Assembly (NCBI GenBank): GCA_019454045.1
Contig: SKCR01010151.1
Span: 372,001 to 436,000 of the forward strand
DNA length: 64,000 nt
Reading direction: 5' to 3'
Origin: Zanthoxylum bungeanum
Lineage: Eukaryota; Streptophyta; Magnoliopsida; Sapindales; Rutaceae
The notes beneath the pieces are model-generated. The model had not been told where the DNA came from. It did not search any database and saw only the letters and a list, made by a program, of their open reading frames with translations. The first letter of the stretch is position 1. The number at the start of each line of letters is the position of its first letter. The translations under genes were made by a program, and so were the position numbers. Positions 4,339-60,604 of the stretch are shown here, in pieces.

Positions 4339-5867
4339 ATGGCTTCCGCAACAAAGAACATTATCGCTGAACTCAACAAGGGTGAGAAACTGAATGGCGA
4401 TAATTATGAAATTTGGAGCATGAAAATCCAATATGTCTTAGAAGAACAAGAGGTTCTTGAAACCTTGAAAATGAGCATGGATGAACCTGAACAAGGCACT
4501 ACGACCCAACACAGGCGAGACCGAGAGGCTTATGAGGCCTGGAAGAAAAAGAATTTCATTACCCGCATTACGTTGCTAAGCAGTATGGATAATGACCTAA
4601 TGAAAAAGTTCAGGAATATGACATGGCTAAGGACATGTGGTCCACACTAGCTGAAAAGTTTGGTAGTACATCAATAACCAAACTCAGGTCACTGACAATC
4701 AAGTTTGACACATACAAGAAACTCCATGAGTTCACTATGTCAAAACACTTGAGGCAAATGTCAAACATGATTAATGAACTGGCAGATGCTGGTCATGTTC
4801 TTACAGATGAACAACAAGTCCAAGCGGTCATTCATTCTCTTCTAAATAGCTGGGAGCATATGAAGATGCATTTGACCCACAATGAGAGCATTAAAACCTT
4901 TGATGATGTTAAACGTCACCTTGAATTAGAAAGCGACCGACTCGCGGCTGCTAAGTCAAATACTGAAGTGTATATGACAGAAACTAGCAAACCTGGGGGT
5001 TTCAAGAAAAAAAGAAAATTTCATGGTGGTGGGTTCCAGTTAAAAAAAGAACAAAATTCTCCCAAGTCAGAAAAGAAACAGAAAACTAATCAACACGAGA
5101 AAGGAAAACTTCCTACCAAAAAGAAAAACATGGCAAAGGTTAAATGCTATAACTTTGGTAAGAAAGGTCATTTTGCTCATGACTGCACTGAGCCAAAAAA
5201 GGTGAATACCATTCGTGCATATTTAAATGAAATATGTGTTTCAAGTTCAATCTTTCTAACTGAATCTAATCCTTTGTGGACTGTAGACTCAGGAGCCACA
5301 GACCATGTAGCGAAGGATAGAGATGCCTTCGTGGAATTTCGACGAATTTCATCTGGGGTGAAATGGATTTATGTTGGCAACAACTCACGGGTTGAATTCA
5401 AAGGAATAGGAACATGCAAGTTAGTGATGCATGGTGGAAAAACTTTACTACTACATGATATATTGTTTGCTCCACAAATTCGTCGAAATTTAGTTTTTGT
5501 GTTGGTTTTGGTTAATTTAGGTTTCAATTTGAACTTTCATAAATTTGGTGTTGATTTGTACTTAGGTACAATACACTATGGTTCTAGTTATTTTGTTGAT
5601 GGTTTTATTGTATTGAATGTTGAATGTTTCAATCACAATTCCAGTTTTTCGTTTATTACTTCATTTGCCAGTGATGATAGTGATGTAACTGTGTGGCATG
5701 CTAGACTTGGCCACATTGGCCAGCAAATAATGAACAGATTAGCCAAAGAAGGCTTTCTGGGAAACATTGAGAAGGTAGATTTGTCAACCTGTGAATATTG
5801 CCTGGCTGGAAAACTGCGAGAAAATCATTTGGAAAAGCGACTAGAGCAGAATTTCCATTACAATTAA
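4339..5867 (+). pseudogene. Copia W gag-protease-GAG-pre-integrase
   Basis: The start is taken at ATG 4339 (MASATKNIIAELNKGEKL) rather than the upstream ATG 4309, because copia gags usually begin near this DUF4219-type motif. Domains in order: DUF4219/UBN2 gag; a one-base frameshift near 4610; the rest of gag to about 5100; a zinc knuckle at about 5138-5187 whose second cysteine is phenylalanine (CYNFGKKGHFAHDC); aspartic protease with an intact DSGATDH at about 5284-5304; GAG-pre-integrase WHARLGHI at about 5693; and CEYCLAGK at about 5789. It ends at a stop at 5865. The frameshift and lost zinc ligand make it a pseudogene. Confidence 0.88.
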
Positions 5868-6983
5868 TCCATTAAGATATCTGTGGTCCAATGAATGTCA
5901 GAGCAAGGCATATAGCATCTTATTTCATCACATTCATAGTTGATTTTACACGCTTTATTTATGTATATTTGATTGCTCATAAATCCGAAGCATTAGAATG
6001 TTTTAAAAAATTTATGAATTTAACAAAAAATTAATTAGACAAGAAAATTAAAGCACTACGCACCCACCGTGGTCGTGAGTACTTATCTGATCAGTTCAGA
6101 GAATTATTAGTCGTCAGTTGACTACTCCTGCTACTCCTTAACAAATGGTGTTGCGGAAAGAAGAAATAGAACTCTTCTTGAAATGGTTAGGTCTATGATG
6201 GCACAAGCAAATTTGCCTATAACCTATTGGGGTGATGCATTATTAACTGCCACATATGTACTTAACCGAGTGCCATCAAAATCTGTGTCCACCACACCAT
6301 ATGAGTTATGGACAGGTCACAAACCAGATATTCACTTTCTGAAACCTTGGGGTTGTGCGGTCTATGTACATGTGTGTTCTCACGAACTTGGAAAGTTAGG
6401 CCCAAGAGGAAAAAAATGTATATTTATAAGATATTCTGAACAATCAAAAGGATATATTTGCATAAGTGAACATGAAAATGGAGGCGTGATAGAATTTGAA
6501 TCACGAGATATCACATTTTTAGAAAATGATTTTCTTAAGCAGGGAAAGATAGTTCATGATTTATCTATATATGAAACTCAGGATCACATGGATCACATGA
6601 TTGGTGAACACTCTGGTTTACCTAACTCAAGTGGGAGTGATGAGAGAAATTTGAGAAAATATGATGAATCTGTTTTACATGAATCTCATAATGATGAATT
6701 AGTTTCACGTAAGTCTCCTTTACGTGATCCGAGTGAGAGTGATGTACATAATCCAAGTGGGAGTAATGTACATGATCCAAATGGAAATAATATGGAAAGT
6801 GAGGAATCAGTTCCACCACTAGAATCCCAATTGCGACATAGTAATCGTATAGGCATTCCTCGACGTCATTTGGATATCGAAGGAGAAACCTTTATGATTC
6901 TACATCAAGAGGGTGAAGAACCTAGAAACATAAAAGAGGCTCTTCAGTGTTCCGCTAAGGAAAAATGGATGAAAGCAATGTAA
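5868..6983 (+). pseudogene. Copia W integrase and acidic linker
   Basis: The integrase core is frame-broken between 5868 and 6180, with readable scraps of the conserved catalytic region. The C-terminal part is open from about 6139 (GVAERRNRTLLEMVRSMM, then YWGDALLTATYVLNR). A serine/asparagine/aspartate-rich linker follows at about 6600-6800 with short imperfect repeats of the type DPSGSNVH. The frame ends at a stop at 6981, where the first RT residues (KEALQ...KWMKAM) already begin. Confidence 0.85.
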
Positions 6984-8480
6984 GACGAAATAGAGTCAAT
7001 GAGGTCCAACCAATTTTGGAAATTAGTTGATCTACCTAAAGGACACAAAGCTATCAAGAATAAATGGGTTCTTAAAATAAAGCGTAATGACGATGGCAAT
7101 ATCGAAAGATATAAAGCACGACTTGTAGCAAAAGGGTATATATAACAGAAAAGAATTGACTATGAAGAAATTTTCACCTGTTGTAAGGTTTACCTCAATT
7201 CGCTTGATTCTGGCTATAGTAGCAAGCATGGATCTAGAATTACATCAAATGGATGTAAAAACTGATTTTCTCAATGGAGAACTTGATGAAGTAATCTACA
7301 TAGAACAACCAATAGGTTTCATAAAAGAAAAGAAAAAAGAGAAAGTATGTAGACTTTTAAAATCTATATATGGTCTCAAGCAATCGTCTAGACAATAGTA
7401 TATACGATTCCATAATACAATCATTTCAAATGATTTCACAATGATAGATGAGGATCATTGTGTGTACACCAAGAGAGATAAAGATAAGTTCATTATCTTA
7501 TCTTTGTACATGGATGATATACTTATAGCTGAAAATGATAAGGAGTTTGTAAAACACATCAAAGAATAGTTATCATCTAACTTCGAGATGAAAAATATGG
7601 GTGAAACTCCAATATTCTTGGGGTTAAGATCTCAAGAAATTGTTCAAAGAATTTATTATCTCTTTCACATTAGTCATACATAAAGAAATTCTTGAACGCT
7701 TTTAAATGTATGCTTGCAAACCCATTGATACTCCTATCACAAAAACTGAAGCTTTGAGTCGTAGATTGTGTCCTGAAACTCCACAGGAAAAGGAAAAAAT
7801 GAAGGAAGTTCCTTATACAAATGCAATTGGAAGTTTAATGTACGCAATGTTATGTACAAGATCTGATATCTGTTTCGCTGTTGAAATGGTAAGTATATAC
7901 CAATCCAATCAAGGACTAGCACATTGGAAAGCAGTTAAAAGAATATTTAGGTATATGAGAGGGACAACTGATTACTCATTGTGTTATCAAGGAAATAATC
8001 TGCAATTGCGAGGCTATACTGATGCTGATTGGGGAGGAGATTTAGATGAAAGAAAATCTACCTCCGGTTTTATTTTCTTGCTAAACAATGGTGCCATTTC
8101 ATGGAGCAGTAAGAAAAAAATCTTGTATAGCCTTATCCACAATAGAGCCTGAATTTGTGGCATTTTCGTCGGCAGTACAAGAGGCTGTGTGGTTGAAAAG
8201 GTTCTTGAATCATTTGGGTATGTCAAATAAAGTTTCTGGTCCAGTATTAGTTAACTGTGATAGTGAAGCAGCGATAGCCTACAAAAAATACCCAAAATTC
8301 CATTGTAAAACGAAACATATAGATACCAAATATAACTTTGTGAAAAACATAGTTGCACGAGAAGAGGTAAACATGAAGTACATTTCTATGCAAGAAATGG
8401 TAGCAGATCCATTGACCAGGCCTGTTCCTAGAGATGTCTTTGTTAGACATGTAAAAACCCATGGATTGCGTAGATGTTAA
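6984..8480 (+). pseudogene. Copia W reverse transcriptase and RNase H
   Basis: RT motifs are readable in order: NKWVLKIKRN near 7061, ARLVAKGY near 7120, MDVKTDFLNGEL near 7250, SIYGLKQSSRQ near 7363, and the catalytic YMDD at 7507-7518. RNase H follows with TDADWGGD at about 8017 and DSEAAIAYKK at about 8258. Defects include in-frame stops near 7143, 7396 and 7567, a frameshift near 7166, and a frameshift in an A-run near 8115. It ends at a stop at 8478. All catalytic regions can be recognised, but the gene cannot be translated as a whole. Confidence 0.9.
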
Positions 8481-25582: not shown

Positions 25583-26985
25583 AAAATACTGCTTCAATTT
25601 GTCTACGTTGATCGGCTCGGTGAACTCATTCCCTTCCAAATCTGACAGTCTCACTGCCCCATTTCCCATGACTTTCTTGACTATGTAGGGTCATTCCCAG
25701 TTGGGTCTGAACTTTCCTCTCGGGTCTGTTGTTGACGGCTTTGACTTTTTAAGCACCAGATCACCCTTTCTGATCTTGGTAGGACGTACCTTCTTGTTGA
25801 ATGCTCGAGCCAACCTCTTCTGGTGTAACTGAATATGACATAAAGACTTCATTCTCTCTCATCGAGTAATTCCAACTGCTCAAATATCTATGAGGCCCAT
25901 TCTTGCTCAGGTAACTCTGCTTCTGCTAATACCCGCATGGACTGTATCTCAACTTCCACCGGCAGTACTGCTTCCATTCCACAGACCAGAGAGTAAGGTG
26001 TGGCTCCCGTTGCTGTTCTCACAGAAGTTCTGTACCCCCACAGGGCGTACGGCAGCTTGTCGGCCTAATCTTTCTAATTTTCCACCATTTTGGCTAATAT
26101 CTTCTTTATTGTCTTATTGGCTGCCTCGACTGCCTCATTCGCTTGTGGTCGGTAAGGTGACGACTTATGATGTCCTATCTCATACCTCTGTAGCATTTCC
26201 TTTATTTCTCCTTGAAATTGGACTCCGTTGTCTGTTACTACGTGATGCGGCATCTCATATCGACAAATGATGTTCCGGGCTATGAACTTTGCCATATATT
26301 TTGATGTGACGTTGCGAAATGACTCGGCTTCCATAAGGACCTGATTATACCCTGAGAACCCATCTGCGAATGAGTACATGGTAGATAATGCCGCACTATC
26401 AACCAGTACGTCTATATGGGGTAAAGGAAAATCATCCTTCGGGCAAGTTTTGTTAAGGTCTCTATAATCCACGCACATTCTGACTTTCCCATCTTTCTTC
26501 GGCACTGGCACAATGTTTGCCAACCACTCGGGGTACTTCACTACTTCCAGAAATCCCACATCTATCTGTTTCTTGACTTCCTCTCTAACCTTCTCGGCCC
26601 ACTCAGGTCTTATCCTTTGGAGCTTCTGCTTTACCGACTTCATGTTTGGATAAGTAAGTGTCGTGCGCTGGGCGATGCTTCTATATACTCCGGGCATGTC
26701 CTCATAGGACCAAGTGAATGCTTTGGCATATTTGACTAACATCTCCTCTAATTTCTTCCGCTCCTTCGAGGTAACCTCACTTGCATTTAAGACCTCCTTG
26801 GGGCTTTCAAGCGTACCAAGGTTAAATGCGTTTGTTTTGGTTGAGTTAATGTCAAATATACTCAAGTCGTGCAAGTTGAAAGGAAGAGACTCAGGCAAGT
26901 AAGCGAAATGAATGTCTTTATTATTAATGGATGCGAGATCACAATTGAATAAGATCAGGAAAACAAACGTCCCCATAATTTGCAA
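25583..26985 (-). pseudogene. Gypsy G2 truncated reverse transcriptase fused to integrase
   Basis: Reading the minus strand, a 303-residue open frame (26985-26074) begins upstream of RT. It shows the RT entry motifs KKDGKVRMCVDYRDLNK and HIDVLVDSAA. At SGYNQVLM it jumps, still in frame, to the integrase segment FRNVTSKYMAKFI. HHVVTDNGVQFQ and SSPYRPQANEAVEAANK follow. The RT YxDD catalytic motif, RNase H and the integrase N-terminus are missing. Beyond 26074 the integrase C-terminal half continues with stops (LPYALWGYRTS, then YSLVCGMEAVLPVEVE) to VDKLKQYFA near 25583. It cannot be catalytic. Confidence 0.88.
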
Positions 26986-27140
26986 CTTTGTCTTCTTCCG
27001 TCTTCTTGCTTTTTTCGGACATCAGATCCTCTAACTGTTGTAATTCTTTTTCCCATTTACTTTCCCATTTCTGCTCCGTTTCATTTTTACTATTGTTGTC
27101 CCATATTCCCATGCGGGAAGCTTGGTGGTCGTGAGTTTGG

Positions 27141-29260
27141 AGGACAGTGCTCCGAAAAGAGAAATCGGACATTATTAGATATGGTCCGATCAATTATGCC
27201 AGGTACGGATCTACCTCTTTCATTTTAGGGTCTTGCTTTAGAAACTGCAACACTATTACTAAACCAAGTTCATTCCAAGACTATTAGTCAAACACCATAT
27301 GAGTTATGGTTTGGGAAACGTCATAGTCTTAGTTATATAAGAGTTTGGGGATGTGACGCATATGTTAAGCTCACACAAACTTACAAATTGGATGATATGG
27401 CAATTAAATGTAAGTTTGGAGGATATGCCTTGAACTCAAGAGCATACGTGTTCTACGTCCCAAATGAACAAAGAACATTTATCTCACGAAATGCTAAATT
27501 TCTAGAGAATGAATTCCTTCTCAAGAAATATAGTGGGAGTAGACTTGACCTCGACGAGGTACGAGAAGAACAAACTAACATAGAACTAAACCCAAGGCCC
27601 CTCAAAAGGGCAGCGACGGAACAACCACAAGGTTATGAACTTAGAAGGTCTGGTAGGGAAAGATATGAGCCTGAAAGATATGGTTTCCATATTGATGAGG
27701 AACATAATCAGGTCATTGATAATGACGATCCCACTAGTTATGACGAAGCAATGCGTGACATTGATTCAGTCAAGTGGCTTAAGGCCATGAAATCTGAAAT
27801 AGACTCTATGTATCAGAATCAAGTCTGGGACTTGGTGGATGCACCTGAAGGGATAAAACTCATAGGCTGCAAGTGGATTTACAAGCGTAAAACTGATGCA
27901 GAAGGCAACATCCAAACCTATAAGTCTAGGTTGGTGGCGAAAGGTAATAGACAAATCCAAGGAATTGACTATGACGAAACCTTCTCGCCTGTTGCAATGA
28001 TAAAGTCCATTCGAATTTTACTGGCACTAGCTGCACACTTTGATTATGATATTTGGAAGATGGATGTCAAAACATCTTTCCTTAATTGGAACCTCGTAGA
28101 GGAAGTCTATATGACACAACCTGAGGGGTTTGCATCTAAGGATGATCATAATAAAGTATGCAAGCTTAAACGATCCATTTATGGACTCAAGCAAGCCTCC
28201 AGAAGTTGGAATATACGATTTGATGAGACAATCAAAGAATTTGACTTCATCAAAAATGTAGACGATCCTTGTGTTTACAGGAAAAGTAGTGGGAGTGCTG
28301 TTGTATTTCTTGTATTATATGTTGATGACATATTAATCATTGGGAATGATATTCCCGTGATGCAAGCCACCAAGTAATGGTTATCTCAGAATTTCTCCAT
28401 GAAAGATTTGGGAGAAGCAACCTACATCATTGGCATTAAGATCTACCGTAATAGATCTAAGAGGTTTTTAGGACTTTCTCAATCTACAAACATAGATAAA
28501 GTTTTGAAAAGATTCAAAATGGAAGATTCCAAAAGAGGTAATTTACCTACTTGTCATGGAATCAAATTATCTAAGGAGCAATGTCCACATACTCCTTCAG
28601 ATTGAGAACGTATGAGTAGGATCCATTATGCTTCAGCAATAGGATCGATCATGTACGCCATGCTATGTACAAGACCTGATGTCTCTTATGCTCTTAGCAT
28701 AACGAGCAGGTATCAGGCAAATCCTGGTGAGCAACACTGGGCAGCTGTCAAAACAATCCTCAAGTATCTAAGAAGAACTAAGGATGTGTTCTTGACATAT
28801 GGAGATTGTTCTGAGATGAAAGTCACTGGTTACTAAGATGCGAGCTTTCAAACCGATAGGGATGACAACAGATCGTAAATAGGATATCTGTTTACTCTGA
28901 ATGGCAGAGCTGTCAGTTGGAAAAGCTCAAAGCATTCAACTACAGCAGACTCCACCACTAAAGCCGAGTATATTGCAGCATCTGAGGTAGCTAAAGAACC
29001 AGTCTGGATAAAGAAGTTCATCACGGAGCTAGAAGTGCTTCCCACGATAAAGAATGGCGTCACGATGTACTGTGACAACGCGGACGCTATTGCTCAATCA
29101 AAGGAACCAAGGTCCCACCAGAAATCCAAGCATGTACTCAGGCGATTTCATCTCATCAAGGAGATTGTTGAGAGAAAATAAGTTATTATAGAGAAAATAC
29201 CTACAGAAGATAATCTTGCAGATTCTCGAACTAAAGGGTTGACTCAATAAAAGCATGATA
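27141..29260 (+). pseudogene. Copia Y1 integrase end, reverse transcriptase and RNase H
   Basis: The integrase C-terminal region starts abruptly at SEKRNRTLLDMVRSIM (27141) and has a stop near 27228. A 329-codon open stretch (27388-28377) covers the end of integrase, the linker and most of RT: WIYKRKTDAEGN, MDVKTSFLNW, SIYGLKQASRSW and YVDD at 28318-28329. Stops follow at 28375, 28603 and 28834. RNase H shows DASFQTD near 28840, STTKAEYIAASE and CDNADAIAQSKE. It ends close to the PPT. It is the best-preserved pol in the window but has at least six lesions. Confidence 0.9.
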
Positions 29261-41425: not shown

Positions 41426-41985
41426 ATGGGCGAAAATGTCTTTAATAGTGTGAACTTTCCTGTCTGGGATATGAACCTCAAGATTGTCCGGGGGGCTGAG
41501 AGGATGCTTTATACGATAGATAGAACTCTCGGGCCTAAGCCCAGAAATGAGCAGCCGCTTGAGCTTAAGCTTTGGAAGACTCATAGCGATGACAACTAAA
41601 CTGCTCAATCAGTCATGCTCGCTGCGATGACCCCTCAATTTCGTCGCCAGAACAAGGGATTTGATCCCTATAATATGATGGCAAAATTGAAGGACCTTCA
41701 TCGATCTAACCTTAGATCGCAAAGGTACGAATTGCAGAAGAAGCTTTTTCGCTCTCGAATGTCAAAGGGTACATCTATCGAGCACCATGTGTCACAGATG
41801 ATTACTGAGATTGAACAGCTGGGTCAGCTAGGCATAACATTTGAGGCTGAGACTTCTATATATTTGATCTTGTAGTCTCTTCCTGACAGCTGGAGCGGGT
41901 TCATCATGAACTACAATATGATGAACCAAGACCATACTCTTGGAGAGCTGATGGCAATGATGTGTGAAGCAGAAAAAAGCTATTG
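41426..41985 (+). pseudogene. Copia X2 gag
   Basis: The start is ATG 41426 (MGENVFNSVNFPVWDMNL), with the copia gag signature PVWDMNLKIV early. The same frame continues through a stop at about 41597 and the open part 41615-41875 (UBN2-like: SRMSKGTSIEHHVSQMI, then TEIEQLGQLGI). A stop lies at 41873-41875 and another follows near 41985, after which a frameshift leads to the lysine-rich basic region. Confidence 0.82.
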
Positions 41986-43187
41986 ATGGGCAAAAAACGC
42001 GAGGCGAACTTCGCTTCAACATCTCAGTCTCCCAAGGCTTGGCCGAAGGCTACTGGAGGTGTAAAAAAGAAGAAGAAGGGCAAGGCCAAATCGTCAAAGT
42101 CTTCTGGGAAGGCAAAGACAAATCCCAAGATGTATGCCTGCAGTGTGTCAAACGGGGTCACTGGAAGTGTGACTGCCGTGAGTACAAGGCGCACATGAAG
42201 GAAATCAAAGCGGCCAAGGCACTGGCTTCATGTATGTTTGTTATAGAAATAAACATGTCTACTTCTAGTTTTAAAAATTGGATTTTTGATTCTAGTTGTG
42301 GTACTTATATATGTACTGATGTGCAGGATCTGCATATTAGCAGGAGACTGGCCTCAGGGGAGATTGATCTACGAGTTGGAAACGGGACCAGAGTCGCTGT
42401 TTTGGCTGTAGGGACTTATATTTTGGAACTGCCCTCGGGGCATGTATTAAACTTATCAGACTGTTATTATGTACCAAGTTTGACTAGGAATATTATATCT
42501 GTATCTTTATTAGCCCAATGTGGGTATACTTTTGTATTTAGAAACACTGGGTGTTTTATGTATAAAAATGATATGGAGATATGCAATGCTGATGTGAATA
42601 ATGGTCTTTATATTTTGAATATATATCAATCTCAAACATATAATGTAACAAACAAAAGGCTTAAATTAAGTAACAAAGATGAAACTTATATGTGGCATTG
42701 TCGTCTGGGACATATTAACAAGACTCGCATATCCACACTTTCGAAGAGTGGGTACTTGGACGGATTTGATCCAAATTCAAATGACGTCCGTGAATCTTGT
42801 TTATTACGCAAAATGCCTAAAACACCTTTTAGCGGTAAAGGTGCACCTGCCACCGAACTGTTAGCCCTCGTTCATAGTGACGTATGTGGCCCATGTCTAT
42901 CCAGGCTAGAGGTGGATATGAATACTTCGTAACCTTTACGGATGATGCATCGCGTTATGGTTATGTGTATCTTATGAGACACAAGCCGGAAACCTCTGAG
43001 AAATTCAAAGAGTTTCGACACGAATTAGAAAAATAGACCGGAAAAAGTATGAAAATATTACGGTCGGACCGTGGTGGATAATACTTGAGCAATGAGTTTC
43101 TCGATTACTTGAAAGAGTATGGTATTCTTTCACAATGGACTCCTCCCGGAACACCGCAATTAAACGGTGTGTCCGAACAAATAAATC
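41986..43187 (+). pseudogene. Copia X2 nucleocapsid, protease and integrase part
   Basis: A lysine-rich stretch at 42000-42120 leads to the zinc knuckle CLQCVKRGHWKCDC at about 42136-42177. Protease shows FDSSCGTYICTD near 42285, with DSG changed to DSS. GAG-pre-integrase has WHCRLGHINKTRISTL near 42692. Integrase starts LVHSDVCGP near 42868 and is frame-broken at about 42900. It continues through RSDRGG (with a stop) to NGVSEQINRT at 43187, where X sequence ends. Confidence 0.82.
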
Positions 43188-51850: not shown

Positions 51851-52957
51851 TAAAGTTTTCAGCAGACACTCAGATACATATTTTTCAGAAACAGATTTTC
51901 AGAAACGGACTTTCAGAGACAAACTTACATAAAAGATGGTTTCAAGAAATAGTTTTCATATGAAACCGTTTATGAGAATTTCAAAGATCTACAGACCAAA
52001 GATAGTTTTCAGAAAAGTTTTTCAGAAAGAAAATTATTTTTCAGATAATGAAAGAGATTTCAGAAGAGATGACTTGAGATGAATTTGGTTTTAGAACCAT
52101 GGATTTCCAAAAAGCATTTTAGTTTCTATTTTAAACTATACACTCACTAGGTCGTTCAAACGATCTAACCTTATACTCTCAATTTCCTTATTTTACAGGT
52201 TACCCAGAGGATGAGCTTGAAAGGATGGATACTAATGACAGTCACTAGGGTTTTGGTTCCACCAAGTCAAATCTGAGATAGAGTTCAGTCAAGTTCCAGA
52301 TATTTGTATATTAAAGTTGTGTCATATGTATTGATGAGCGGAAAATACATCAATATTTACCGCCCCTTTAACTTAATATTTTGTTTAGTTTCTCGGGTTT
52401 GATGAACGTTTTGATATGTTTTATTTTATTTTGCAGATAAAATAATATCGGGACTCAATGAAATCATTTAGGACGAAATGTGGATCAAATAAGGGCAATT
52501 ATTGGACTTGATATATTAATTTTGGAGATTGGAAACTTGAAATTGCGTTTTTGACGAAGTGCAGTTTTGGAAATTCCAGTTTTGCGCATCTGTCGTACTT
52601 TGGGCATAACTTTTTACTCAGATATCGGATTGAGCGGATTCAAGTGCCAGATTAAAGAAGACTCAAAGATCTACAACTTTGAAAGAGAAAATATTTTCGA
52701 ATTCTGAAGATTTCATGACCGAAATTGATGAACCATCCAGAAGTGTGTGGAGTGTAATTATTAAAAGTCATTATCAATCATTTTCAAAGCAAAATATTAA
52801 TTAATAAATAATTAATAAAAATTATCAAATCACCACCAAACAAGATAAGCAATTAGTGGAGCAATTATGGATTTGGTGGTGGAGTAATTAGTGGAGAAAT
52901 TAATAATGGATTTGGTGGAAAAATTGATTGATGATTTGATGGTGGCAAAATTTTGCC

Positions 52958-52965
52958 TATAAATA
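52958..52965 (+). promoter_or_regulatory. TATA box in 5' LTR of the LOG-carrying element
   Basis: TATAAATA in GCCTATAAATACC. A likely polyadenylation-type AATAAATAAG follows 55-60 bp downstream. The same signals are at 58943-58950 in the 3' LTR. Confidence 0.6.
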
Positions 52966-53279
52966 CCAAGCCATTTCATTTGTAAAATTCATACTTTCTT
53001 CTTTGAAATTCTTAATGAATAAATAAGAAGATTGTATCTAGTTTGTTTATTTTTAGTTTTCAGTAATTAATTTTCAGTTTCGCACTTTCTTTTCTTTACT
53101 TTTCAGTTTTTACTTTCCGCAATTTACTTTTACGCACAGTACTTTTCTTTCTTTAATTTTTAGTTTTTACTTTTTTTCAGTAATGAGGAGGTAATTTCCC
53201 CAGCTAGGGTGAAAGGTAATTCTTTTACTGTTACTATTTAGATTAATCTCCCTTAAAAATAATATATTCACTATTTAAA

Positions 53280-53490
53280 ATACTGATTAATAAAGGATAC
53301 CGCTATATTGGTCGGTTGGCAATTCAATTTAATCTGGTTTAAACCTGACTAATCAAGGATACCGCCAGATTGGTCGGTTGAAATTTATTTTGGTACCGCC
53401 TTTATGGCTGGATTATGGACAAATATTACCGCCTATATGGCTGGTTGGACTTAATTTGACTTAATCAGGATACCGCCAGATTGGTCGGTT
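53280..53490 (+). repeat. Short repeats GGATACCGCC(A)GATTGGTCGG in LTR
   Basis: Five imperfect units alternate 'ATTGGTCGGTTGG' and 'ATGGCTGG' versions within 210 bp. The same block lies at 59275-59480 in the 3' LTR. Confidence 0.75.
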
Positions 53491-54412
53491 GGTAAAATAA
53501 TATCACAAGTTTATATATTATTTTATGGAGATATCTAAATTAGTAGTAGTAAAAGTAATTCCTTTTACCTTAACATTTTATTTTATTTTACTTTTCAGTT
53601 TTTACTTTATGTCTTTTACTTTTCAGTATTTTTACTTTATGTCTTTTACTTTTAAGTTGTTACTAGCCCTAGTTATGTGTTAGTTATCTGGGGTTGTGAT
53701 GAATTCTAATATCACCGTTTTATAAGGGGTTATTTTATAGTTTGGGTAATTTAAAGGTTTACTTATTAAGTCTTAAGCTTAATGCTTCTTGTTGTCTGAT
53801 CACCAATAAGATTGATGTGGTAAATCTAAAATGAACTAGACATAGGGATTTTAGGTTTCAGCCTTAGACTTAATAGCCCACGATCTTCCTTGAGGATAGA
53901 TAACCCTTTAATAGATTTCCTTACAGGATAGGAATATACCTGTCGGGCGGGGGTAGCCATAATTGGAACTTAAACTTAATGAATCCAGATAATTTGGTTG
54001 ACATAGACATATGGTTCAATTGGGTTAAACTGGGTATTTGCGTCTGACCATCGACAGAGGCTTTTGCATAATTTAGTGTTCCAGGTTAGTAAACTGATTT
54101 ATTACACAAACATAAAATAACCACTTCATCTTTTAAATGATATTAGAATGATTCACGACCCTAGATCTTTGTGTCTTTTGTTATTTTCCTTAGTATTTTA
54201 TTTTGTCTTTTTATTTATTTATTTTTGTAAAACCACATTCAACCAATCAAACAATCATTCTCTTCTCCATTAAATAGATATTTGTAAATAAATAGATTCA
54301 ACAATTAATAACAACAATAGGAATTAAGTCCTCGTGGGATCGATATTTTTATACTACTTGAACGATACGTGCGCTTGCGTTATACGTGTGTGTTTACGCC
54401 GGTCAAGTTTTT

Positions 54413-54430
54413 TGGCGCCGTTGCCGGGGA
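54413..54430 (+). other. Primer-binding site (tRNA-Asp) of the LOG-carrying element
   Basis: TGGCGCCGTTGCCGGGGA lies seven bases after the 5' LTR end. This PBS, complementary to plant tRNA-Asp, is well known in Athila- and Tat-type gypsy elements. Confidence 0.88.
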
Positions 54431-54546
54431 TTTATATTTCTTGAGTTATTAATTTTGATGCTATCCAATTTACTTGTATCTAATTTTCTTATTTTTATCT
54501 GTAATTTTTATTTCTTTCTTTTGTTTTCAGGTGTTTGAAAAAAAAA

Positions 54547-55051
54547 ATGGAACACTACTGGGAGATTGAGAGATTACGAGCTTTACAAGAAGATACACCT
54601 CACATCTGGGAGCAACAGTCCGGTTTTCTGAGGCCTGTTGTCCAGCCCAACAATTATCACTGGATGCCAGAACCAAACAATCTACATTTGCTCAACAGAA
54701 CGAAATGGAAGATGTGTAATATGTGATGGTAACCACCCGAGCGATCAATGTATATACCGTTCAGAGTGGCAGAATTTCAGAATCATTCAAAATATGAAAA
54801 ACCATCACATTTTCCATCTTATCCAGCATCCATATGCGATTTTCATCAACAACCAGAACCATCAGAGGAAGATCAGTTGTTAAACATGCTCAAAGATATG
54901 TTCGAGAAACAAAAGTTGGATGAAATGCTTGAAACAAGCCAGAAACAATTTGAAAGTATTCAGAGACAATCATAATTCATTCAGAGGATGACAGATCAAA
55001 TGAGACAATTCACAGAAAACCAGGACTACATACCTCAAGAACCAGTTTCAA
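54547..55051 (+). pseudogene. gag-like remnant with zinc-finger-like motif
   Basis: The first ATG after the PBS is at 54547 (MEHYWEIERLRALQED). Its frame stops at 54724. An overlapping frame encodes CVICDGNHPSDQC (54713-54751), a C-X2-C-X3-H-X4-C motif like the gag knuckle of Athila/Tat elements. The first frame resumes from about 54748 with a glutamine-rich helical region (LLNMLKDMFEKQKLDEMLE) and stops at 54973. The main capsid part of gag is missing. Two frame changes in 250 bp show decay. Confidence 0.65.
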
Positions 55052-55603
55052 ATGACACTGATGAAGCCTTCAAATACCAATCATTTCACAATGACACTTC
55101 AACAGAGAAGAGGGAGAGCTGAGCAGTATCAACAACCAGAGGTATCAGTTCAGGAGCCCGAACCGAAAGCAAAGTCGCAATTTGACTTTTATTATACAGA
55201 TTCTGACGAGGATGAAGCTGATTTATTTGTACCAACTGCACCAACAACGGAGGATCAAACATTCAATCCTCAAAATGAAGATCTTGGAGCATGCTTTACC
55301 ATGATGTTTGAAGAAGATCTATCTGAACCATCCATTTCGGTCGTATTAGAGGATGAAGACTTAAAATCTGACATTTCTTTTCATCCTCAGGTTGACAATT
55401 TTGAAACATGTATTTCACAGATGACAGATAAAGAGCTGAATATGGAAATTTTAAAATACATCTGTGAAGAGAAGGTGGAACAAAAAGCAGAGCAAATGGA
55501 GGAGCAAATATCTAACCTTAATAAAGATCCAGAGCATTCAGGAGAAACATCGTTGTTTTGGGGAGTACAAATATACAAAATAAAGATATCACCAGAAGCT
55601 TGA
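55052..55603 (+). CDS. Acidic retrotransposon-encoded protein, unknown function (183 aa)
   Basis: An intact open frame starts at ATG 55052, the first of several in the frame. The product is strongly acidic: DSDEDEADLF near residue 51, a serine- and glutamate-rich middle, then a helical KVEQKAEQMEEQISNL segment near residue 143. No catalytic motif or known domain is recognised. It follows the gag remnant and may be the former gag/pol spacer, since Tat and Athila internal regions often hold such low-complexity acidic stretches. Whether it is expressed is unknown. Confidence 0.45.
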   Translation: MTLMKPSNTNHFTMTLQQRRGRAEQYQQPEVSVQEPEPKAKSQFDFYYTDSDEDEADLFVPTAPTTEDQTFNPQNEDLGACFTMMFEEDLSEPSISVVLEDEDLKSDISFHPQVDNFETCISQMTDKELNMEILKYICEEKVEQKAEQMEEQISNLNKDPEHSGETSLFWGVQIYKIKISPEA

Positions 55604-56335
55604 CAGAATGAATTTCCATTCCAAGTCAAGCATCATACGAGACCTCCTGATTTTCTTTCTTTCTTTGCAGGAACCACTGGAGTAACAAGGAGCAAAAAGG
55701 TGGCACAAGCACTAAATGGGACAAAACTCTTTTGCCACCTTACCGTTGGAAGAGACCCTTCAAAAGCAACGCTCACGAGATTGTTTTTGGTCGGACATCC
55801 AAAACGACATTGAAACCTCCTTAACAGATGAATTTCAGTCACGTCTGGCTGAAGACGAAAATTTAGCGCTAGCAGGGAGGCAACCCATGCAATTTGTTGA
55901 AATTTGTTTTTTTTTTTGTGTGAACTTTTTAATTTTGTGTGTTATTTTTGTAGGGAAAGGCACAAACGGAGCATTTTGAGACAGAAGGAATGGTGTTTAG
56001 CAAAAATAAAAGCTAATTCATTAGCGATGGCTGAGTAAGGAATGAAATATTGAGACACATCCTAATGAATTTATACTAAGCACGTGGCGTATTGCGTACA
56101 CAATTCTGTTGCCTTAATTATTGCTTTGATTCACTTTTCTATTGTAATTATCTTTATTTTCGTAGACAGGATCCAGACTTTTTGACCTTTCACGATTTCT
56201 TTTGTTGTTTAGCTAACAATCGTCCTCTGGAAGATATTAGTGCTATTATTACTCATCCTTTTTCAGGTACTATAAATTCAGCCCGTCATTGCACTTTTGA
56301 AGGCATCCTGATTTGAAAAAGAAATACATAAAAAA
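55604..56335 (+). other. Internal region between acidic ORF and LOG-like gene
   Basis: Short open frames only. GGGAGGCAACCCATG at 55875-55889 resembles a motif found near the 3' end of the coding region of Athila/Tat elements (from memory). TACTATAAATT at 56270-56280, some 60 bp before the LOG ATG, could be a TATA-like element or captured 5' sequence. Confidence 0.4.
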
Positions 56336-56988
56336 ATGGAAGCCACTTCAAGAAGACGAGTTGAAAACATCTGTGTGTTTTGCGGTAGTAGTGTTGGTAC
56401 TAAACCACAATACATAGAAGCAGCACATGAATTGGGTCGAGTCTTAGCTGCAAGGAATATTCACTTAATATATGGCGGAGGAAATCTTGGACTTATGGGG
56501 ATCGTTTCAAAGGCTGTACAGGAAGGAGGCAGTCATGTTTTGGAATCATCCCAAAACCTTTGGCAGAGGCAAATCTTATTGGTTCATCAAACGGAGAGGA
56601 ACTGATCGTGCCAGGTATGTCTGAACGACTGGTAGAAATGATTAACCGTGCTGATACTTTTATCGCTTTGCCAGGTGGCTTGGGCACATTGGAGGAAATT
56701 TTTATAGTTCTATCTTGGGCGAACCTGAACATACACCAGAAACCGCTTGGACTGCTCAACATTGATGGATTTTATGATTTTCTTTGTGTGTTTCTTGATG
56801 ATGCTCGGAGAAATGGGTTCGTGTCAAAACCTATGAAAGAACTCATCTTCACTGCCAGAACTGCTTCGGATCTAATAGACCAATTCATAGCCTATGAACC
56901 ACAAGTTGACCCTATCATTTCAAAGATAAAATGGTCCGATGATGATCGTGGTAAGAAGCGTCGAATAAATCTGGATCTTAACCTTTAA
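56336..56988 (+). pseudogene. LOG-like cytokinin riboside 5'-monophosphate phosphoribohydrolase, retrotransposon-captured, one frameshift
   Basis: LOG enzymes release active cytokinin bases from their nucleoside 5'-monophosphates in one step. The start is ATG 56336 in an A-rich context. The first part reads [15 protein letters not shown], then [10 protein letters not shown] at 56471-56500. The second part has the phosphoribohydrolase signature PGGLGTLEE at 56671-56697, then KPLGLLNIDGFYDF. A single missing base, about 56542-56546, separates the two frames; otherwise the gene would be about 217 residues, normal for plant LOG. The usual MHxRKxxM motif reads MSERLVEM, keeping Arg (56626) but not Lys. 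The C-terminus carries KKRR and LDLNL. Plant LOG genes normally contain several introns; none are seen here, which suggests capture from mRNA. The frameshift could be real or an assembly error. Confidence 0.9.
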
Positions 56989-57044
56989 TTTCCTGTAGAA
57001 TTTCAACTAACCAGGTACGATTTTCTAAACTCTTCTTCTACTGT

Positions 57045-57088
57045 TTAAGACATTGGGGACAATGTCTCATTTAGGTTTGGGGGTGAGG
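57045..57088 (+). other. Internal PPT-like sequence
   Basis: TTAGGTTTGGGGGTG at 57074-57088, preceded by ATTGGGGACAATGTCTC, repeats almost exactly the true PPT at 58305-58319. Confidence 0.6.
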
Positions 57089-57495
57089 TATAGCTAATAG
57101 TACTTGTTTGTATTGTTTTTTTATTTTTAGTCCAAAATTTTTCGAAAAATACAAAAAAATTTGGAAAATTTTCAAAAATTACAAAAATATTTTGTGTTTT
57201 TGTGTTTTTATTTTTGACTAAAAAGGTGAAATTGGTAAGAGATAGCTGAGTAAGGAGTTTCCACTCCTGAGACGTATCTCAAACCTAATTCGAAACAAGT
57301 TAATTTTATGTTTATTTCATTTTAAATTATTTAATTTGTGAATTCTCCTTAAAATGGACTAAAATGGATCTTCATATGCTCAGTTGACAGGTATTATCAA
57401 CATATATAGTAACATACGGACATGAGCTAAAATTGAAAAGTTTGTAATATTCAGTGCTCTAGTTTAATTGGAGGAAGCATCTCAAAAAGCAATGG

Positions 57496-57499
<4 letters not shown>

Positions 57500-57536
<37 letters not shown>
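57500..57536 (+). repeat. Poly(A) tract, about 37 bp
   Basis: An uninterrupted A-run follows GGAGT and is followed by CGTCTGAGATCC. It is the longest homopolymer in the window. Confidence 0.9.
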
Positions 57537-57537
<1 letters not shown>

Positions 57538-57780
57538 GTCTGAGATCCGGGTTATTAAGTCTGTAAGGGTGTTTTAACACCTAGTGCCCTAAAACCAACT
57601 GGTTTGGGAGTCACTGACCCAAAGCTCGCTACATGGATCGAAGATGCTGCAAAAATATATATATCTGAAGTCTGAGTAATTAAGTCCGTAGGGGTGTCTT
57701 AACACCTGGTGCCCTAAAGCCAACTGGTTTGGGAGCCACCGACCCAACACTCGTTACATAGATGGAAGATATTGTATATA
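57537..57780 (+). repeat. Tandem duplication, about 122 bp unit, two copies
   Basis: Units at about 57538-57652 and 57663-57775 share TCTGAGATCCGGGTTATTAAG-type starts and the string CCAACTGGTTTGGGAG. They lie in the 3' untranslated part of the element. Both contain a short TTAACACCT...CCTAAA core. Confidence 0.85.
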
Positions 57781-58304
57781 AATAAAAAATAAAAAAAAAA
57801 ATCAAAGAAAATCAGAAAAATGAGAAAAATTATTCCATTGCTACAAAAAGGTGTGAAATCTGATAGAACTTTAGGACAAAAATATTACTCTCTTATCAAC
57901 TGCACTTATGACTGTTGTGGGCAAAAATGAGTTAATATTTTGTTGGCTGTGTATATAGAGAATGGTAAAAACAATCGGAGAATTTACTTGTTCAGTAATT
58001 TAAAATAAAACAAAACAACTAGTAACTTAGAGTAGAAGTTTCACCTGATTAGTCACTAACATCTTTATTCTCTTTTCGTTTGTCTTTTTGCTTTTATGTG
58101 CATTAGTTTTATTATCTTTTTACTTTTGTAAAACGTTTGTGGGTATCGTTGCTGTAAGCCCTCACGAGAATATAACTCGTCCACTAGGGACACCTAGGGG
58201 TTTAAGGCTTGTTGCATATGCTAAATGCAACCGTGATCCCTACGAAAGTGGCTTAGTTTAATTTTAATTTTATTTTGTTGTTTTGCTCGAGGACTAGCAA
58301 AATG
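57781..58304 (+). other. 3' untranslated region of the LOG-carrying element
   Basis: AT-rich and non-coding, leading into the PPT. No gene. Confidence 0.5.
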
Positions 58305-58319
58305 TTAGGTTTGGGGGTG
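58305..58319 (+). other. Polypurine tract of the LOG-carrying element
   Basis: TTAGGTTTGGGGGTG abuts the 3' LTR start TGATGAGCGG. Confidence 0.75.
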
Positions 58320-60387
58320 TGATGAGCGGAAAATATATCAATATTTACCGCCCCTTTAACTTAATATTTTGTTTAGTTTCTCGGGTTTGATGAACGTTTT
58401 GATATGTTTTATTTTATTTTGCAGATAAAATAATATCGGGACTCAATGAAATCATTTAGGACGAAATGTGGATCAAATAAGGGCAATTATTGGACTTGAT
58501 ATATTAATTTTGGAGATTGGAAACTTGAAATTGCGTTTTTGACGAAGTGCAGTTTTGGAAATTCCAGTTTTGCGCATCTGTCGTACTTTGGGCATAACTT
58601 TTTACTCAGATATCGGATTGAGCGGATTCAAGTGCCAGATTAAAGAAGACTCAAAGATCTACAACTTTGAAAGAGAAAATATTTTCGAATTCTGAAGATT
58701 TCATGACCGAAATTGATGAACCATCCAGAGGTGTGTGGAGTGTAATTATTAAAAGTCATTATCAATCATTTTCAAAGCAAAATATTAATTAATAAATAAT
58801 TAATAAAAATTATCAAATCACCACCAAACAAGATAAGCAATTAGTGGAGCAATTATGGATTTGGTGGAGTAATTAGTGGAGAAATTAATAATGGATTTGG
58901 TGGAAAAATTGATTGATGATTTGATGGTGGCAAAATTTTGCCTATAAATACCAAGCCATTTCATTTGTAAAATTCATACTTTCTTCTTTGAAATTCTTAA
59001 TGAATAAATAAGAAGATTGTATCTAGTTTGTTTATTTTTAGTTTTCAGTAATTAATTTTCAGTTTCGCACTTTCTTTTCTTTACTTTTCAGTTTTTACTT
59101 TCCGCAATTTACTTTTACGCACAGTACTTTTCTTTATTTAATTTTTAGTTTTTATTTTTTTCAGTAATGAGGAGGTAATTTCCCCAGCTATGTGAAAGGT
59201 AATTCTTTTACTGTTACTATTTAGATTAATCTCCCTTAAAAATAATATATTCACTATTTAAAATACTGATTAATAAAGGATACCGCTATATTGGTCGGTT
59301 GGCAATTCAATTTAATCTGGTTTAAACCTGACTAATCAAGGATACCGCCAGATTGGTCGGTTGGTAAATTTATTTTGGTACCGCCTTTATGGCTGGATTA
59401 TGGACAAATATTACCGCCTATATGGCTGGTTGGACTTAATTTGACTTAATCAGGATACCGCCAGATTGGTCGGTTGGTAAAATAATATCACAAGTTTATA
59501 TATTATTTTATGGGAGATATCTAAATTAGTAGTAGTAAAAGTAATTCCTTTTACCTTAGCATTTTATTTTATTTTACTTTTCAGTTTTACTTTATGTCTT
59601 TTACTTTTCAGTATTTTTACTTTATGTCTTTTACTTTTAAGTTGTTACTAGCCCTAGTTATGTGTTAGTTATCTGGGGTTGTGATGAATTCTAATATCAC
59701 CGTTTTATAAGGGGTTATTTTATAGTTTGGGTAATTTAAAGGTTTACTTATTAAGTCTTAAGCTTAATGCTTCTTGTTGTCTGATCACCAATAAGATTGA
59801 TGTGGTAAATCTAAAATGAACTAGACATAGGGATTTTAGGTTTCAGCCTTAGACTTAATAGCCCACGATCTTCCTTGAGGATAGATAACCCTTTAATAGA
59901 TTTCCTTACAGGATAGGAATATACTGTCGGGCGGGGGTAGCCATAATTGGAACTTAAACTTAATGAATCCAGATAATTTGGTTGACATAGACATATGGTT
60001 CAATTGGGTTAAACTGGGTATTTGCGTCTGACCATCGACAGAGGCTTTTGCATAATTTAGTGTTCCAGGTTAGTAAACTGATTTATTACACAAACATAAA
60101 ATAACCACTTCATCTTTTAAATGATATTAGAATGATTCACGACCCTAGATCTTTGTGTCTTTTGTTATTTTCCTTAGTATTTTATTTTGTCTTTTTATAT
60201 TTATTTTGTAAAACCACATTCAACCAATCAAACAATCATTCTCTTCTCCATTTAAATAGATATTTGTAAATAAATAGATTCAACAATTAATAACAACAAT
60301 AGGAATTAAGTCCTCGTGGGATCGATATTTTTATACTACTTGAACGATACGTGCGCTTGCGTTATACGTGTGTGTTTACGCCGGTCA
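58320..60387 (+). repeat. 3' LTR of the LOG-carrying element (about 2.07 kb)
   Basis: Near-identical to 52332-54405. The differences seen are a three-base deletion in the GGTGGTGGAG region, several one-base indels in T or G runs, and a handful of substitutions. It is followed by the TSD copy TGTAT. Confidence 0.94.
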
Positions 60388-60604
60388 TGTATTCGTGTAT
60401 AGAGTTGTTAAGAAACGTGATATTGAGTATTCAATTGTGTGTTCTGTTTTGTATTCTATATCGTGAATTTGGGCAATGGTCCCATAAATGAGATTATGTT
60501 TGAGAAAAGAGTATTAGTGTTATTCATAGTTAGAAAGTCAAAGGCTCAGGAGGATAGTACGACCTATTCCCTACCGGTAGCATCTCCTGGAGATGGATGT
60601 TACA
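60388..60604 (+). repeat. LTR of element L, right part
   Basis: After the TSD copy TGTAT the LTR runs to TGGATGTTACA at 60604. The last 60 bp (ACCGGTAGCATCTCC) matches the minus copy at 33317-33360. The short open frame 60439-60753 crosses the LTR boundary and is not a gene. Confidence 0.75.

Follow-up and report, generated by a model that had tools for sequence, protein, structure and literature searches.

Why does a plant retrotransposon carry a gene of the LOG family, and does that gene still activate a hormone? The question is raised by an element at positions 52332-60387 (+ strand) of a 64,000-nucleotide stretch of the Zanthoxylum bungeanum genome (contig SKCR01010151.1, positions 372,001 to 436,000 of the forward strand), referred to here as the window. 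A preliminary description of the window proposed a young, intact long terminal repeat (LTR) retrotransposon that had captured a host LOG cytokinin-activation gene in place of pol. Our reading, held with somewhat more confidence than doubt, is that a multi-copy family of elements has as its third gene a resident, repurposed LOG-fold gene, here called retro-LOG, that the window element is a young, non-autonomous copy from this family lacking pol, and that retro-LOG acts by the mechanism proposed below. Judged from its sequence, retro-LOG has a changed hormone pocket and probably no longer makes cytokinin.

A young element without pol

The window element has the paired LTRs, perfect target-site duplication (TSD), primer-binding site (PBS) and polypurine tract (PPT) of an LTR retrotransposon, and its description as young and structurally intact stands. 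Its 5' LTR (52332-54405, 2074 bp, TGATGAGC...CCGGTCA) and 3' LTR (58320-60387, 2068 bp) differ by 3 transitions and 5 transversions over 2064 aligned sites, a Kimura two-parameter (K2P) distance of 0.0039; the pairing was as first described, and the end of the 5' LTR was corrected to position 54405. Since plant substitution rates are about 0.7-1.3e-8 per site per year, this distance corresponds to an insertion age of some 0.15-0.3 million years. TGTAT flanks the element on the left (52327-52331) and on the right (60388-60392), and the PPT (58308-58319) abuts the 3' LTR; these features and those below are all on the + strand unless marked otherwise. The PBS motif TGGCGCCGTTGCCGGGGA is present at 54413-54430, and we take it to pair with tRNA-Asp. 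A second PPT-like stretch lies internally, 3' of LOG (57073-57085), presumably an Athila-like feature. PBS type, internal PPT and an integrase C-terminus (see below) would place the element in an Athila-like family of Ty3/gypsy elements, an assignment that draws partly on what we assume to be typical of that group. In the available text of PMC6317226, tRNA-Asp is among the primers of non-chromovirus Ty3/gypsy elements.

Pfam models for pol or gag found no match in the 8 internal open reading frames (ORFs) scanned, other internal ORFs lying outside the scan, in agreement with the preliminary description, which had no pol; none of these 8 recognisably encodes the reverse transcriptase, RNase H or integrase that an autonomous Ty3/gypsy element would supply for itself. 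The intronless, sense-strand LOG-like gene noted at 56336-56988 is present: two frames over this interval match Pfam Lysine_decarbox (E = 9.6e-31) and LDcluster4 (E = 3e-8), and also match solved Arabidopsis LOG chains. What it lacks is a working frame, as the gene is split over two overlapping frames, so that the window copy does not encode a full LOG protein.

LOG throughout the family

We searched the genome with several queries, each of which gave loose first-look candidates from which 40 to 150 matches were scored: 4076 candidates for the 653-bp LOG query (40 scored), 1130 for the PBS region, 1825 for the non-LOG stretch int3 (57201-57490) and 63497 for a distant relative. The best 40 of the 4076 LOG-query candidates were 97-100% identical throughout. 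Copies were assembled into three samples, LOG-chosen, PBS-region-chosen and int3-chosen, the latter two of which avoid selection bias towards LOG. The assembly may hold both alleles, as with copies L071 and L072, which are 99.4% alike.

Both element ends could be located in 14 of 20 LOG-chosen loci. Nine of these have exact 5-bp TSDs, one has a TSD with 4 of 5 bases alike and 4 are mismatched. In line with the preliminary description, LOG lies inside conserved LTRs in many copies. LTR divergence was 0.0010-0.0151 in the 13 pairs measured, the window pair included. LOG falls into two lineages in this family, A (that of the window copy) and B. Of the 40 int3 matches 20 were retrieved, and LOG is present in every one of these copies (9 A and 11 B, one of them partial); of the 40 PBS-region matches 12 were retrieved, and 11 have it (8 in lineage A and 3 in lineage B). 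LOG is therefore a property of the family and not an insertion private to the window copy, and the prospect, raised in the preliminary description, that other family copies would lack it was not borne out. Because other copies carry LOG at the identical place, we rejected both a recent single capture and a nested insertion limited to the window copy.

The two LOG lineages are about 70-72% identical in DNA, while int3 is 89-97% identical. Mosaic structure is evident in the window copy, which has a lineage-A LOG but shares 99.7% identity in int3 with the LOG-B copy L030, against 93-97% with the ten A copies in the comparison. Retro-LOG is intronless, whereas LOG genes of the host consist of several exons. 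A comparison of these host exons pointed to no particular plant group, and the mention of nodule development in the preliminary description found no support. In the search with the distant relative, 139 of 150 scored matches had no internal stop, a proportion biased towards intact frames because the matches scored were the best-scoring ones.

Two observations concern individual copies. L035, the sole PBS-chosen stretch of the 12 without a match to LOG, int5 or int3, may have lost these parts by deletion, be interrupted by a nested insertion or contain another kind of internal region. Some LOG elements (L010, L017 and similar ones) show an LTR followed directly by the PBS leader of another element, resembling tandem arrays that share LTRs.

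A pol-bearing relative

The distant relative also recovered a third lineage, LOG-C (L071-L074), which shares about 75% identity with A and B. Upstream of LOG-C, the L071 element has a 778-codon ORF that runs without a stop to the edge of the retrieved sequence and has matches to RVT_1, RNase H, Integrase_H2C2 and rve; all four LOG-C loci have an open integrase C-terminus. As reverse transcriptase, RNase H and integrase are upstream of LOG-C, LOG lies 3' of pol in this relative; by comparison, the window element resembles a derivative without pol. No pol was found in the A/B-family copies fetched in full, and no pol-bearing A or B element turned up, none having been searched for specifically. 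Between integrase and LOG-C lies a 183-aa ORF (L071:660-1208; also in L072 and L073, shortened in L074) that matches Pfam Carla_C4, the carlavirus nucleic-acid-binding protein (E = 2e-5, 24.9 bits, cut-off 20.9), and matches Viral_NABP below that family's cut-off. It is a possible virus-derived second accessory gene.

Selection on LOG

Between intact copies, synonymous divergence (dS) is 1.94 for A-B, 1.63 for A-C and 1.26 for B-C, and nonsynonymous divergence (dN) is 0.226, 0.151 and 0.177, respectively, giving dN/dS values of 0.117, 0.093 and 0.140. The preliminary description was right that an LTR element carries a host-type LOG gene, but its implied recent capture has to be given up: there are three lineages at dS 1.3-1.9, LOG also occurs in the pol-bearing relative, and in an 80-row tree a branch with 100/100 support separates 21 canonical LOGs from the other 59 rows, the retro-LOG clan among them.

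Within lineages, nonsynonymous (N) and synonymous (S) variants were counted in PBS- and int3-chosen copies only, those present in two or more copies being termed shared. Shared variants of LOG-A (17 copies) number N16:S38, distributed 9/4/41 over the codon positions and amounting to 0.16 of the neutral expectation (p = 4e-11); those of LOG-B (13 copies) number N5:S14, or 0.13 of neutral (p = 2e-5). Singletons, most of which postdate insertion, number N41:S33 plus 4 stops in LOG-A (0.46 of neutral) and N39:S17 plus 3 stops in LOG-B (0.81 of neutral). The upstream gene remnant ORF1 served as internal control in 15 copies, LOG-chosen apart from the window copy, and has shared variants of N95:S39, or 0.77 of neutral. 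LOG is the constrained gene of the element, and ORF1 drifts. LOG is also less diverged than neighbouring non-coding DNA in 26 of 28, 32 of 36 and 38 of 45 pairs of PBS- or int3-chosen copies; the same contrast in LOG-chosen copies (190 of 190 pairs) was set aside, that sample having been chosen by LOG.

Pocket, catalytic residues and tail

According to the available text of PMC4979012, Arg99 and Glu122 are the proposed catalytic residues of CgLOG, Met96, His97, Lys100, Glu125 and Trp129 form its proposed prenyl pocket, Lys100 is in addition part of the lining of the adenine site, and replacing crucial residues of the adenosine monophosphate (AMP) site by alanine nearly abolished activity. We compared 120 listed relatives of retro-LOG, 17 of which are shorter than 200 residues, with 120 canonical LOGs, a narrow set as it comprises those nearest to AtLOG3. 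All eight scored residues are canonical in 120/120 canonical LOGs and in 9/120 listed relatives, and K100 and E125 are both changed in 0/120 and 110/120, respectively; R99 is changed in 12/120 listed relatives. AtLOG8, a distant plant LOG, retains the canonical letters in the alignment. In Z. bungeanum the scored residues read M-S-R-L-E-E-I-W in lineage A, M-P-Q-I-E-E-T-W in B and M-S-R-L-E-E-T-W in C; of the prenyl pocket (M96, H97, K100, E125, W129), the H, K and E are changed in all three. The catalytic Arg is found in 16/17 A copies and 0/13 B copies, Gln taking its place in 13/13, and the catalytic Glu in 17/17 A and 12/13 B copies; C keeps both. PGGxGTxxE is present in the intact A, B and C reference copies and in 104/120 listed relatives. 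Cytokinin activation, as first proposed, is thus poorly compatible with the pocket of all three lineages, and the strongest argument against such a role is that LOG-B lacks the catalytic Arg and is nonetheless constrained.

The intact LOG-A copy L014 has the Lysine_decarbox domain, and its predicted structure is a LOG fold (predicted local distance difference test, pLDDT, 87.7; best PDB match 2a33 at 52% identity), with pLDDT below 50 in tail residues 204-217. A basic cluster and LxLxL are both present within the last 25 residues in 88/120 listed relatives versus 0/120 canonical LOGs. The tail ends in LDLNL in 17/17 A copies and in LDIDL in 10/13 B copies, the remaining 3 being gapped. Early-branching rows of the non-canonical group (P0033, P0036, P0073, P0102 and P0107) keep the canonical pocket, and P0039 has both that pocket and an LxLxL tail, a pattern suggesting a tail older than the pocket change. 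No encoded relative was found in the viral contigs searched.

Among the tail-clan proteins of Xanthoceras sorbifolium (P0008, P0015, P0031, P0102, P0107), some have tandem LOG domains, and some tail-clan clusters of this species hold 35-39 member sequences; these suggest multi-copy LOG elements there too.

A putative LOG promoter

LTR control of LOG, as first envisaged, is called into question by a conserved putative TATA box some 60 nt upstream of the LOG start codon. In the window copy it is CTATAAATTC (56270-56279), its TATAAAT 65 nt ahead of the start codon. The 100 nt preceding the ATG contain TATAAAT in 23/23 copies (the window copy, 12 other A and 10 B), against a background of 32/1040 sequence windows of the internal region, and it is kept although A and B are 25% different over the 215 bp upstream (one pair compared). 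All four LOG-C copies have TATAAATTC 60 nt before the ATG, and a similar motif appears as translated read-through before the LOG start in P0009, P0011 and P0102, relatives from other sources. The simplest reading of this pattern is that the LOG transcript would be driven by its own TATA box.

Proposed mechanism and alternatives

We propose that LOG would be transcribed from its own internal promoter during the active phase of the element. The protein would fold as a LOG dimer and still bind nucleotide, releasing no cytokinin, and the basic tail would take it into the nucleus. EAR-like LxLxL motifs in host proteins recruit TOPLESS co-repressors; the LxLxL end of retro-LOG could do the same, tilting host transcription or silencing to the element's advantage. 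This recruitment, an analogy drawn from general knowledge of EAR motifs, is the weakest step of the mechanism. The window copy would rely on other copies for LOG and on the pol-bearing relative for reverse transcription. We also put forward, tentatively and with more doubt than belief, a wider scenario of reverse domestication: a host hormone enzyme would have been taken long ago, lost its hormone pocket, gained an internal promoter and a nuclear tail that recruits co-repressors, and been kept as the element's own regulator of host transcription or silencing; in the pol-bearing form, LOG and the neighbouring ORF similar to a nucleic-acid-binding protein of plant viruses would together make up a two-gene module for interaction with the host.

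Several results weigh against a resident, repurposed gene. The LOG frame is broken in the window copy, and an ORF of at least 217 aa for LOG is found in 5 of the 20 int3-chosen and 4 of the 11 LOG-bearing PBS-chosen copies. Lineage A retains the catalytic Arg and Glu, so that some hydrolase activity is possible for it. LOG-B ends in LDIDLNR, which is not a strict LxLxL, and the retrotransposon setting is established for copies in this genome, not for the relatives from other species. LOG-A singletons are also replacement-poor (p = 0.0014 for the 0.46 given above), and in the 15 ORF1-scored copies LOG has only N9:S11 shared variants, the contrast with ORF1 reaching p = 0.04. The stretch just upstream of LOG is likewise low in divergence in LOG-chosen copies, which is why the codon-level counts carry the selection argument. 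Selection may, moreover, operate in donor elements with pol, recombination then transmitting its outcome.

This last point can be extended to a full alternative, in which the source of the constraint is a host gene or the LOG elements with pol, and pol-less copies receive LOG by recombination without gaining from it. The mosaic structure of the window copy and the existence of the pol-bearing LOG-C elements speak for such transfer, but the constraint is visible in variants common to A copies and to B copies, and the A/B copies fetched in full hold no pol, pol-bearing A/B elements not having been specifically searched for; we consider this account unlikely. We are about as sceptical of a transduced, working LOG, by which the element would multiply an enzyme that still releases cytokinin, higher levels of the hormone in dividing cells favouring transposition. 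Strong constraint between lineages, the catalytic Arg and Glu with PGGxGTxxE in A and C, and the 9/120 listed relatives with all eight canonical residues would fit it. Against these stand the joint K100 and E125 change in most listed relatives, the Gln of the nonetheless constrained B copies, and, in the available text of PMC4979012, the position of Lys100 in the adenine site together with the near loss of CgLOG activity when crucial AMP-site residues were changed to alanine. Least probable by far is that LOG is a passive passenger, a recent host-LOG retrocopy carried without function. The contrast between an intronless LOG and exon-split host genes would agree with a retrocopy, as would the broken window copy, but dN/dS of 0.09-0.14 between lineages, shared variants at 0.13-0.16 of neutral, three lineages, and a conserved TATA box and tail do not. 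For the family as a whole this explanation is already refuted by the constraint, unless that constraint was imported from a host gene.

Relation to known elements

Steinbauerova et al. 2011 (Genetica 139:1543) reportedly described two Athila-like elements with similarity to LOGL4. Consistent with that report, the available text of PMC9289625 gives YgdH (LOG) domains in Ty3/gypsy LTR retrotransposon consensuses of Citrus and poplar, so the capture itself, whose novelty had been left open, is already in print. The elements in that text and ours share a LOG-domain extra ORF; what differs here is a pol-less high-copy family with a pol-bearing relative, measured constraint, a TATA box, a changed pocket and a tail. 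Our literature search pairing LOG names with retrotransposons did not extend to many subscription papers or ask for tail, promoter or pocket as such; within the text it reached, it returned nothing beyond PMC9289625 and a bermudagrass genome paper, and the searched text of PMC6317226 and PMC7264820 contains no word starting with LOG or cytokinin. LOG in such elements is thus known, whereas the constraint, own promoter and pocket change look new.

Other elements with host-type sequences offer partial parallels. Like the orchid Ty3/gypsy element with an ALKBH RNA-demethylase ORF (PMC9289625, available text), the family keeps a host-type enzyme as an extra ORF; the orchid enzyme works in vitro, whereas the pocket residues of retro-LOG are changed. 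Maize Bs1 and other gene-capturing LTR elements (PMC7264820, available text) likewise hold host-type coding sequence, but Bs1 has fragments of several host genes and the present family one whole, long-constrained gene. With the type-I LOG phosphoribohydrolases (AtLOG3, 2a33; AtLOG8, 1ydh; CgLOG, 5its), retro-LOG shares the fold and PGGxGTxxE; it differs in the changed H97, K100 and E125 (CgLOG numbers) and the extra basic and LxLxL tail. The family makes it possible to measure how selection maintains a former host enzyme in a plant retrotransposon once its pocket has changed. Whether extra ORFs have any function is raised as a question in the available text of PMC6317226, and for plant Ty3/gypsy elements it becomes testable through retro-LOG. 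Relatives named LOGL10 in poplar annotations carry the changed retro-LOG form and should not count as cytokinin enzymes without an assay.

Other features of the window

The remains of ORF1 lie at 54484-55820, in several broken frames in the window copy; ORF1 is open for 445 codons in copy L013 and for 417 in L019. It has no Pfam family above its cut-off, and a homologue search returned 5 unnamed proteins. A CxxC...H...C stretch suggests a Gag remnant. Following a poly-A run, two tandem 125-bp units, 80% alike, occupy 57526-57775. Elsewhere in the window, inspection by eye pointed to Ty1/copia polyprotein-like fragments at 4596-8480, 27229-28377 and 41961-42932 (+ strand), and to a fusion of two pieces, one like a gypsy reverse transcriptase and one like an integrase, at 26074-27021 (- strand).

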